Assembly: GCF_026151205.1 (NCBI RefSeq)
Contig: NC_087077.1
Location: forward strand, 20,237,198 to 20,301,197
Direction: 5' to 3'
DNA from: Bolinopsis microptera
Taxonomy: Eukaryota > Ctenophora > Tentaculata > Lobata > Bolinopsidae
DNA length: 64,000 nucleotides
This document shows, one piece after another, positions 1 through 59,310 of the stretch. A program made the translations under genes and the position numbers. The first letter of the stretch is position 1, and the number at the start of each line of letters is the position of its first letter. The notes beneath the pieces were generated by a model. That model was given only the letters and a program-made list of their open reading frames with translations. It ran no database searches and was not told where the DNA came from.

Positions 1-260
1 CTCTCTCTCTCTCTCTCTCTCTCTCTCTCTCTCTCTCTCTCTCTCTCTCTCTCTCTCTCTCTCTTCTCTCTCTCTCTCTCTCTCTCTCTCTCTCTCTCTC
101 TCTCTCTCTCTCTCTCTCTCTCTCTCTCTCTCTCTCTCTCTCTCTTATGATCACTCTCTCTCTCTCTCTCTCTCTCTCTCTCTCTCTCTCTCTCTCTCTC
201 TCTCTCTCTCTCTCTCTCTCTCTCTCTCTCTCTCTCTCTCTCTCTCTCTCTCTCTCTCAC
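1..260. repeat. (CT)n microsatellite
   Basis: An almost pure CT dinucleotide tract interrupted near 64 and at 145-154 (TTATGATCA). The equivalent place in the right arm (about 58,870) has only three or four GA units, so the tract expanded on this arm or shrank on the other. Open frames reading RERERE or SLSLSL through it are artefacts of the dinucleotide. Confidence 0.97.
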
Positions 261-942
261 TCTTCCAGCTGTAACAATTACTAGAGAAGTCGGCGTTATT
301 CTGCGCTAGTCTTATTTCCATTAAATATTCAACATTGAGTTTACAATATATCGTATTAACTAGGGTCTGGGCCACCTTCAGCGGCATTATTATTGCTCTC
401 ACTCTTTTTTGAAATTCTTGCATGACAATTTCACATGTTGGACGATTGTTAAACATCGATCAGCTGATCTTTTTGACATCAAAATTTCAACCTTCTAAAA
501 AATTTAGCTATATTGCATTTGCTTGACTGTTTCTGAGATCTTAACAATATTGCAGAGCTCCTGAAATGTTAACTTTCTGCAAACCTTCTGGAGCATCTTG
601 TACTAGTGAGTTACTATGGCAACTAGTGGTACTAGTGAGTTACTATGGTAACTAGTGGTACTTGTAGCAGTTAGTTTAAGTTTCAAAACCCAGTCTAGCG
701 TACAGGAGTAGTCAGTAGGTCAGAGTCTGGCGCTATTTTTGCAGCGTATCTTTCGATACCGTTGATAGATTGATCACACCATCTTCACTTTTTCACACCC
801 CCACAAACAATGCCTTTAGCCTAGTGACGACTCTCGTTCCAGCCAAGGAAGCCTCACCATCTTCTACAACAATCCTACTCCGACTATATCAGACCTCACA
901 ACCAGACAGATATTTCCACCCCTGCATCCCAGACTAATGTTC
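261..942. other. Non-coding arm sequence with two X-box-like repeats
   Basis: I see no credible gene. The stretch matches 58,090-58,860 in the right arm. At 601-660 a roughly 31-bp unit containing GTTACTATGGCAACTAG is present twice; the right arm has five copies at 58,388-58,530. A short ORF at 151-456 on the minus strand has a counterpart at 58,678-58,938, but the two share only about 60 codons before the microsatellite, and no known family is evident. Confidence 0.6.
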
Positions 943-1080
943 ACTAGTAGCAGTCCTTACTTATTCATTACTTTTAATTAAACAATCTTAGTGCAGTCCT
1001 TACTTATTCATTACTCTTAATTAAACAATATTAGTGCAGTCCTTACTTATTCATTACTTTTAATTAAACAATCTTAGTGC
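943..1080. repeat. 43-bp tandem repeat, about 3 copies
   Basis: The unit contains GCAGTCCTTACTTATTCATT followed by ACTTTTAATTAAACAATCTTAGT. The right arm carries the same unit about 11 times at 57,615-58,092, so array size differs between arms. Confidence 0.9.
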
Positions 1081-1292
1081 TATAATAACAGTTGTGTCTT
1101 AGTGCCATGAGTTGTAAGACAGCAGTGTGGGAATATGTCGCAGTGAAGTGCAGGTAAGTAAGGACTAGAAGCAGTGAAGCGCAGGGAAGTAAGTAAGGAC
1201 TAGAAGCCGGATAAGGGCCGGTTTATCAATCTCCCACCATCTGCCAGATAGCCCGCACGAGGCACGGAGTAGTCCGGATAGTTTGCCAGTAG

Positions 1293-1450
1293 AGGTGAGG
1301 TAGAGGTGAAGTAGAGGTGAAGTAGAGGTGAGGTAGAGGGGGGTAGAGGTGAAGTAGAGGTGAAGTAGAGGTGAAGTAGAGGTGAAGTAGAGGTGAGGTA
1401 GAGGGGGGTAGAGGTGAAGTAGAGGTGAAGTAGAGGTGAAGTAGAGGGGG
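1293..1450. repeat. 11-bp minisatellite, about 14 copies
   Basis: The unit is GTAGAGGTGAA with GTAGAGGTGAG and GTAGAGGGGG variants. The corresponding place in the right arm (around 57,340-57,360) has no array, so the arms differ from many copies to none. Confidence 0.9.
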
Positions 1451-55788: not shown

Positions 55789-57424
55789 TATAAAAGAGCT
55801 CTCTCTCTCGCTCTCTCCCTTTAGGGGTAACAGTAACACGACACTAGAATATCTGCGAAGTAAAGTGGTCTGAAGAGTAAGGTGGTATCTGGTATTGGCT
55901 GAACATTACGTCACCCGACCAATACTCTCTCTCTCTCTCTCCGACCAAAACCGGATATTGAAGCTGCCAGCCTTGCCATATTCCTCCCCTGACTTCATCA
56001 TGTTGTATTAGTCTGATTATTAGTCGTTTGAACACAGTCTGTGTTATTAAGTAAGGGTTTAATTTGTCTAGTCTGTACAGTACATTTTATAAAGGAGTAA
56101 AGGTTTACCTCATCACACCAAATGATTATCTACATTTTACTAGCACACAAGTCACTCAATAATCTACATTTACTAGCACACAAGACATAAGTCACTCAAT
56201 AATCTACATTTACTAGCACACAAGACATAAGTCACTCAATAATCTACATTGACTTGCGAGATTCAATACAATCGAGATTAAACATACGTTGTTACGTTAT
56301 TATGGTGACAGTGAATTATCAAGAGCAGCACGAGCGAAATCTTGCAAAAAAAGAAACGCAAATTCTAAAAAGAAGGAAATTTTAGATTAAGAATTAAGTA
56401 GTGTGACTGTCACATATTTCCTCTATTCAAAGAATTAGTATTATTAATACCAAGAGCTTCATCATAGCTTGATTTGAAAACATGTTTACTACTAAATGGA
56501 TCAAACAATTTTTTTGACGGAAAAAACCCACGATTATAGAAAATCGGAAACCTTCGATTAAACTTAAGATGGCCTAATTGACAAATATTTCAATTTCCTT
56601 TACCATCTAACGTAATTTAATCGCTGCCGCTGAATTCACGCTCGTTGCACAATTACCTAAGTGGAGATGACGGAAAAGAGATCTTTTGACAGGTAAAATG
56701 TCAACGAACGTTCTGGAAAATCGGAAACTTTATAAATTTCAATTTCCTTTATTCTTGGAAATATAATCTATTTTAGGCTATGTCGCTTTTAATTAAAACA
56801 TTGCAAGCACATTTATGATTTGCATTGGAGAAGATGAAGGAAACAAAAAGGTATAATATTTCGGATAAAGTCGGCAACTTAAGATGTTGGAGGAGGAAAG
56901 TAGCAGCCGTACTACTGCAACTTGCAACTTATAAGAGTCCTTACGAGAGCGTGAGTACGAATATTATAGGTACTAGAGAGCTCATGCTCGTAGCAGAGAG
57001 TGAGGCTCTAAACCCACCGTACTGACTACTGGTACATTATAAAGGAGTAATGCTCCAAATCACGCTAAATAACCAAATCACGCGCCACGTGCGGAGAGAC
57101 GGCGGTGGTGAGGTAGCTAATCTATAAAATATTATAAAGGAGCATGGTTATATAATAACATAATATAACACATAATCGAGTTAGGAATACGAGAATATAA
57201 TATTCCTGATTAACGAAGCATGAAGCATGAAGATAAACCTATAACTGTTATTATCAGACGTAGAAGCAATAGAACCCACCACGGCCCTGGTGCAGTATAC
57301 TAATATATATATATATATATATAGTAGGATAGTGGAGCAGGAGTACCAAGGTTACAGTGCTACTCCGTGCCACGTGCGGGCTATCTGGCAGATGGTGGGA
57401 GATTATAATAAACCGGCCCTTATC
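55789..57424. other. Non-coding arm sequence
   Basis: Collinear with 1,200-4,210, but carrying single copies of the units that form large arrays on the left. An (AT)n run lies at 57,300-57,321. No gene is supported. Confidence 0.5.
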
Positions 57425-58092
57425 CGGCTTCTAGTCCTTACTTACCTGCACTTCACTGCTTCTAGTCCTTACTTACCTGCTTCTAGTCCTTACTTACCTG
57501 CGCTTCACTTCTTCTAGTCCTTACTTACCTGCGCTTCACTGCTTCACTGCTTCTAGTCCTTACTTACCTGCGCCACACTGCTGTCGTACAACACATAGCA
57601 CTAAACTGTTATTATAGCACTAATATTGTTTAATTAAAAGTAATGAATAAGTAAGGACTGCACTAAGATTGTTTAATTAAAAGTAATGAATAAGTAAGGA
57701 CTGCACTAAGATTGTTTAATTAAAAGTAATGAATAAGTAAGGACTGCACTAAGATTGTTTAATCAAAAGTAATGAATAAGTAAGGACTGCACTAAGATTG
57801 TTTAATTAAAAGTAATGAATAAGTAAGGACTGCACTAAGATTGTTTAATTAAAAGTAATGAATAAGTAAGGACTGCACTAAGATTGTTTAATTAAAAGTA
57901 ATGAATAAGTAAGGACTGCACTAAGATTGTTTAATTAAAAGTAATGAATAAGTAAGGGCTGCACTAAGATTGTTTAATTAAAAGTAATGAATAAGTAAGG
58001 ACTGCACTAAGATTGTTTAATTAAAAGTAATGAATAAGTAAGGACTGCACTAAGATTGTTTAATCAAAAGTAATGAATAAGTAAGGACTGCT
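57425..58092. repeat. Two adjacent arrays: 31-bp (about 5 copies) and 43-bp (about 11 copies)
   Basis: CTTCTAGTCCTTACTTACC/TGCGCTTCACTG units at 57,425-57,580 are followed by GACTGCACTAAGATTGTTT/AATTAAAAGTAATGAATAAG units at 57,615-58,092. The left arm has about two and three copies respectively. The word TCCTTACTT occurs in opposite orientation in the two units, which may explain how one array arose next to the other. Confidence 0.93.
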
Positions 58093-58387
58093 ACTAGTAC
58101 TAGTGAACATTAGTCTGCGATGGAGGGGTGGAAATATCTGTCTGGTTGTGAGGTCTGATATAGTCGGAGTAGGATTGTTGTTGAAGATGGTGAGGCTTCC
58201 TTGGCTGGAACGAGACTCGTCACTAGGCTAAAGGCATTGTTTGTGGGGGTGTGAAGAAATGAAGATGGTGTGATCAATCTATCAACGGTATCGAAAGATA
58301 CGCTGCAAAAATAGCGCCAGACTCTGACCTACTGACTACTCCTGTACGCTAGACTGGGTTTTGAAACTTAAACTAACTGCTACAAGT

Positions 58388-58530
58388 ACCACTAGTTGCC
58401 ATAGTAACTCACTAGTACCACTAGTTGCCATAGTAACTCACTAGTACCACTAGTTGCCATAGTAACTCACTAGTACCACTAGTTGCCATAGTAACTCACT
58501 AGTACCACTAGTTGCCATAGTAACTCACAA
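58388..58530. repeat. 29-bp X-box-like tandem repeat, 5 copies
   Basis: Units of GTACCACTAGTTGCCATAGT plus AACTCACTA. The core GTTGCCATAGTAAC fits an RFX X-box half-site pair. The left arm has two copies (601-660). A single detached copy also sits at 60,889-60,914, outside the palindrome. Confidence 0.93.
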
Positions 58531-59310
58531 GTACAAGATGCTCCATAAGGTTTGCAGAAAGTTAACATTTCAGGAGCTCTGCAATATTGTTAAGATCTCA
58601 GAAACAGTCAAGCAAATGCAATATAGCTAAATTTTTTAGAAGGTTGAAATTTTGATGTCAAAAAGATCAGCTGATCGATGTTTAACAACCGTCCAACATG
58701 TGAAATTGTCATGCAAGAATTTCAAAAAAGAGTGAGAGCAATAAAAATGCCGCTGAAAGCGCCCCAGACCCTAGTTAATACGATATATTGTAAACTCAAT
58801 GTTGAATATTTAATGGAAATAAGACTAGCGCAGAATAACGCCGACTTCCCCAGTAATTGTTACAGCTGGAAGAGAGAGATTCACAGCTGGAGGAAGCGGT
58901 TCCTCAGTTCTGGTAACATAAAAATGTTGGGAATTTAAATTTGAGTTGCCAGTGTGGTGATGCCGATAATTTAGCGGTTCACTGTATAATTATAACAATA
59001 TATATAATTATTACAATATATATGTCTGTATAATTAATAATGATTACAGTATTATTATATACTGCTGTTTACTTAGTACAAGACACCTGCAGTGTAATAC
59101 TACAAGTATTAGGAGTACTTTTTTAAATTAAATACTTTTCAAATTTTACAGAGTACAGCAATAGATGAATATAATTATAAAATAGAATCGTTCAAAATAT
59201 CGCCCCCATCTGTAAAATATGATGGGCACCCAAACACGGTAAACACATAGTGAACTATGTCCGCAGTAACTTGGACCCATTACATCGAATTAATCTAAAT
59301 CCACAAATCT

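Follow-up and report, generated by a model that had tools for sequence, protein, structure and literature searches.

Introduction

The palindromes P1-P8 of the primate Y chromosome are kept up by gene conversion. They are mentioned in the Pacasus article, which also describes palindromes that arise during whole-genome amplification, when the polymerase continues along an existing product and inverted repeats appear in the long reads; its authors suggest that many inverted duplications of an earlier assembly are amplification artefacts, and missed or missing SMRTbell adaptors are given there as another cause of palindromic reads (PMC6218980). Fold-back artefact reads have been described for both Nanopore and PacBio data (Heinz, Meyerson, Li 2026, PMC12870357). 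According to that report, the second segment of such a read lies on the opposite strand and starts no more than 200 bp from where the first segment stops, typically fewer than half of them have more than 11 bp between the two segments, and these reads are able to tangle the assembly graph (PMC12870357).

This article describes a head-to-head inverted repeat in the ctenophore Bolinopsis microptera. The window, that is, the whole stretch of 64,000 nucleotides that was analysed, covers C6:20,237,198-20,301,197 in an assembly of 264.65 Mb and 232 pieces, on a scaffold of 20,932,313 bases; flanks of 60 kb on the left and 140 kb on the right were included in the comparisons. The features discussed below are the following, in window positions.

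1..27077, forward strand: left arm; outer part clean, inner ~20 kb noisy in patches; extends left past a 5,000-N run
7080..49000, no strand: noisy core, ~20 kb left and 22 kb right of the centre; limits approximate
22462..23142, reverse strand: 227-codon open frame without a Pfam match at E 0.1; this left-arm copy is intact
27063..27104, no strand: fold-back junction, perfect 15-base arms and a 12-base loop
27078..27089, no strand: loop of 12 bases, native continuation of the locus on the right-arm strand, as the uninverted copy near C6:20,333,257 shows
27090..64000, reverse strand: right arm, the left arm in reverse complement; alignment within the window extends to 58,879
38712..39281, reverse strand: FAR-17a/AIG1-like exon (PF04750, E 2.4e-36), intact in the right arm

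As in fold-back reads, the opposite-strand copy starts close to the end of the first, here after a loop of 12 bases and so within 200 bp. Single reads are concerned in that report, whereas here the fold is fixed in a scaffold, its arms measure ~55 and 64 kb, and their outer parts resemble different alleles. Unlike in adaptor-derived palindromes (PMC6218980), the loop consists of native sequence and not of adaptor. The locus shares with the Y palindromes the great length of the inverted repeat; the arms of the latter are of high identity, whereas here the core is less alike than the rest and its differences are read-like.

Extent of the inverted repeat

A near window-wide, collinear inverted repeat had been proposed from the letters of the window, and this was borne out by self-BLAST, with inverted matches running from the centre out to the pair 255-673 and 58,463-58,879; the outer end given in the preliminary description, 58,877, was accurate to within 2 bases for the alignment inside the window. 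Among the first 60 matches per strand, self-comparison returned 28 collinear inverted blocks of at least 300 bases inside the window, with identities of 78.5-96.7%, and chance is thereby excluded as an explanation. The assembled letters do contain the repeat, and it is larger than first described. Its centre lies at 27,077/27,090 and the full arms are collinear, measuring ~55 kb on the left, including the 5,000-N run, and ~64 kb on the right.

The left arm goes on past the run of 5,000 Ns, which stands just before window base 1, to ~C6:20,209,169; the right arm reaches ~C6:20,327,841, and its part beyond 58,879 aligns with sequence to the left of the window. Flank self-comparison considered matches of at least 400 bases, direct ones less than 3 kb apart being excluded, and the arm-extension comparison matches of at least 150 bases; the simple-repeat filter of BLAST was on for both, as well as for the uninverted-copy and error-gradient comparisons below. 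A CT microsatellite and a short tandem repeat lie at the borders of the 5,000-N run. The arm alignment holds on both sides of the run, which may mark a gap in the assembly or sequence that was withheld. The proposal of a palindromic chromosome end does not fit the location, as the window ends ~0.63 Mb inside the nearer end of the 20.93-Mb scaffold.

Copy number was followed with queries from the arms. An arm-specific 1-kb query gave 28 matches, of which 2 were full-length, one per arm, and 26 lay elsewhere and covered ~50-100 bases. A query from the left outer arm gave 7 matches. Three were near-full-length, one in the left arm and two in the right, where the sequence is locally duplicated; the other four, also in the two arms, were partial. 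Three flanking-sequence queries matched dispersed or tandem repeats.

The fold and the uninverted copy of the locus

The central hairpin had been placed exactly, at 27,063-27,104, with a spacer of 14 bases; the loop in fact has 12 bases, between perfect arms of 15. On the right-arm strand these 12 native bases are followed by 3 that fit the native continuation and the left-arm strand alike, after which the strand changes. This anatomy is that of a strand switch with a 3-base microhomology.

The native continuation can be read from the same scaffold. Beyond a 100-N gap, the next piece opens with ~4 kb that repeat the sequence preceding the centre: C6:20,329,316-20,333,280 matches the reverse complement of the right arm at 90.3% over 4,151 columns, ending at the centre, and the last stretch of this copy matches the left arm directly at 87.0% over 1,410 columns. 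Both matches end at the fold and are followed by different, non-inverted sequence, so that the locus is also present uninverted through the breakpoint (C6:20,329,316-20,333,280 and onward). This suggests that the left arm truly runs on into C6:20,333,265 and beyond.

Left, right and uninverted copies were compared over 1,440 columns next to the fold. All three agree in 1,065 columns and all three differ in 16, and differences private to one copy number 158 in the left, 149 in the right and 52 in the uninverted copy. When counts were confined to clean context, defined as columns flanked on both sides by three identical ones, transitions, transversions and indels numbered 1, 18 and 8 in the left copy, 2, 9 and 17 in the right and 1, 0 and 1 in the uninverted copy, with 4 columns undecided overall. 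These counts imply independent noise in both arms at the fold and a third copy that is nearly clean. As there are almost no clean-context transitions within 1.4 kb of the fold, the three copies look like one haplotype there. Noise confined to one arm was also considered and was rejected, both arms being noisy at the fold and the noise alternating between them farther out.

The junction bears on how the arms were brought together. Scaffolding or gap filling alone could have set two haplotype contigs head to head, with no fold-back molecule involved and a core drawn from the raw reads of both haplotypes. The left arm lacks a tandem repeat of ~2.1 kb that occupies ~28.5-30.6 kb in the right arm and is present in the uninverted copy, and a repeat found in only one arm would suit this reading. 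Such a join is nevertheless unlikely in view of the base-exact fold, whose 15-base perfect arms and 12-base native loop are those of a strand-switch product, and of the one-haplotype appearance of the three copies beside it.

Error gradient along the arms

Differences between the arms are distributed unevenly with distance from the centre. Identity is 78.5-91.8% for ~20 kb on either side of the centre and 89.8-96.7% in most blocks farther out; the block of lowest identity lies near 19.0-19.6 kb of the window, and identity is low throughout the 20-kb core. The five 4-kb bins less than 20 kb from the centre contain 23.5-59.3 one-base indels per kb, and in the eight listed farther out the figure is 0-3.9. 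At 1-kb resolution, all 18 inner bins listed have 11.7-70.2 per kb and all 22 outer bins listed 0-5.7, with an abrupt step between the bins at 19-20 and 20-21 kb. These counts used non-overlapping matches only, taken best first, and left aside 4-kb bins with fewer than 100 and 1-kb bins with fewer than 150 aligned bases, the latter including the bins at 11-12 and 15-16 kb. A step as sharp as this resembles the edge of a fill and again agrees with a join made by gap filling.

The kind of change differs as well. Transitions make up 0.21-0.38 of the substitutions per 4-kb bin inside 20 kb versus 0.46-0.65 outside, a distinction that blurs at the 1-kb scale, where the bin at 16-17 kb (inside) has 13 transitions in 26 and that at 38-39 kb (outside) 11 in 41. 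In two control repeats of the same region, ~98% alike, one-base indels amount to 0 and 0.8 per kb. The third control is a pair of tandem repeats that have diverged to 78% identity; there the rate is 29 per kb and 25 of the 82 mismatches are transitions, so that the indel rate by itself is not specific for read error. With that reservation, which concerns one of the three controls, errors around the breakpoint are read-like, and the core looks like raw-read noise while the outer arms carry what look like allelic differences.

The outer arms differ by 2.6-5.7% substitutions, a low and transition-rich divergence, and their tandem arrays are of unequal copy number; one with a 43-bp unit, for example, is present in 3.1 copies in one arm and 11.1 in the other. 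The copy number of tandem arrays often differs between alleles. Taken together, the outer arms look like two alleles.

An origin as a recent hairpin-mediated duplication, also put forward in the preliminary description, is contradicted both by the read-like errors near the centre and by the fact that the same scaffold carries the uninverted continuation. One form of a biological origin would be a true inverted duplication carried by one haplotype, a real palindrome of more than 100 kb with a 12-base loop, formed in vivo by fold-back at the 3-base microhomology, the uninverted copy representing the other haplotype and the core having been left unpolished because the arms were too nearly identical for polishing reads to be placed between them. 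A heterozygote could indeed hold the palindrome and the uninverted copy together, and the microhomology at the fold is also compatible with fold-back repair in vivo. We regard this origin as very unlikely: the private differences by the fold, ~10-11% in each arm (158 and 149 of 1,440 columns), far exceed what would be expected of an assembler consensus at normal coverage; the arms resemble each other less in the core than in their outer parts, whereas the core of a recent palindrome should be at least as alike as the rest; and, given the divergence of the outer arms, two different haplotypes would have to lie on one molecule if the event were recent. The homology of the right arm, moreover, stops within 1.4 kb of the 100-N assembly gap, a point in favour of an artefact.

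Coding exons as a test of the arms

Two coding stretches are present in both arms, one copy of each being broken. The 227-codon frame at 22462..23142 is intact in the left arm and its counterpart at 33,122-33,799 in the right arm is broken; the FAR-17a/AIG1-like exon is intact in the right arm and broken in the left, at ~17.7-18.15 kb. In the Pfam scan, which covered 10 of the 47 open frames of at least 100 codons, one frame passed the cut-off (PF04750) and one remained far below it. When the AIG1-like exon was used as a query in the genome, three matches were obtained, namely the two arms and a paralogue on C7, which is itself an intact exon (C7:5,836,094-5,836,602).

This paralogue, a true one whose identity is similar to that between the arms, has kept its frame open. 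Between the right arm and the C7 copy, 109 of 548 positions are mismatched, 70 of these at third codon positions and 58 being transitions, with 2 gaps, an open frame and 83% protein identity. Between the right and left arms, 44 mismatches are spread over codon positions as 15/12/17, 16 being transitions, and 48 gaps, 37 of them of one base, occur over 515 aligned bases. The exon test is a better discriminator than the indel rate.

Another possible history is that of an old inverted duplication with decayed arms, in which the broken exons would be pseudogenes. Such a history would be in keeping with the core identity of 78.5-91.8%, with the frame-broken copy of each of the two exons and with the fact that diverged old repeats of this genome can be rich in one-base indels, as in one control. 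It is extremely unlikely, since the changes of the core, with a transition share of 0.21-0.38 per 4-kb bin, are not evolution-like, the alignment of the AIG1-like exon lacks codon-position bias and contains its 48 gaps, the breaks alternate between the arms, and the indels drop suddenly 20 kb from the centre.

Origin of the palindrome

We are highly confident that the palindrome is an artefact of assembly, whether or not a fold-back read was involved, and the form in which such a read took part is the probable one; both judgements are drawn from the assembled sequence. At a heterozygous locus, a long read would have folded back on its own complementary strand, with the 3-base microhomology and the 12-base loop, and this read would have let an assembler or a gap closer join the haplotype that runs up to the fold with the other haplotype reversed. 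The resulting piece would then have been placed in the scaffold between its true neighbours, the true locus continuing uninverted in the scaffold's next piece. The core of ~40 kb presumably keeps raw-read errors because few reads support it, and the outer arms would be ordinary, well-called alleles.

Among the readings offered in the preliminary description, two haplotypes joined by an assembler came nearest, and it fits the outer arms; it omits the fold-back read and the unpolished core, which together account for the join itself. Two observations stand against an origin of both arms in a single molecule. The strands of one fold should agree, yet the left arm is without the tandem repeat of ~2.1 kb, and the noise is patchy and alternates between the arms, one exon being intact on the left and the other on the right. 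Competition between the arms, with polishing reads choosing one or the other, would explain this alternation.

The mirror repeat is thus very probably not a real feature of the chromosome and probably has no biological significance of its own. Anyone counting genes in this assembly, or surveying it for palindromes or segmental duplications, would nonetheless catch a false head-to-head duplication of more than 100 kb, which holds duplicate, frameshifted exons. The uninverted continuation, the error step and the codon-position test against a true paralogue can flag folds of this kind from the assembly alone, without reads.

Other sequence features of the region

No tRNA was found in the window by ARAGORN with the bacterial code, and no Rfam family matched in it at the gathering score. 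A 60-bp satellite occupies 61,137-64,000 and continues beyond, with ~48 copies in the window at 99% match; its unit length holds long frames open on both strands (865 codons), and the part of the left arm region that was searched holds no exact copy. In the right arm, a 476-bp unit is present twice at 52,972-53,928 with 100% match. Tandem arrays at 25,226-25,473 and 30,787-30,992 have consensus units such as ATGTGTTGCCATGGTAAC and TGTTACCATAGCAACACA, which we take to resemble the RFX X-box. Farther along the scaffold, a tandem array with a period near 337 bp at C6:20,386,604-20,394,389 faces an inverted self-copy of 1.24 kb at ~98% identity. A dispersed repeat of ~0.6 kb at C6:20,336,146-20,336,781 has copies on twelve numbered scaffolds among the candidates scored (40 of 926), these copies being full-length or nearly so at 91-99% identity.
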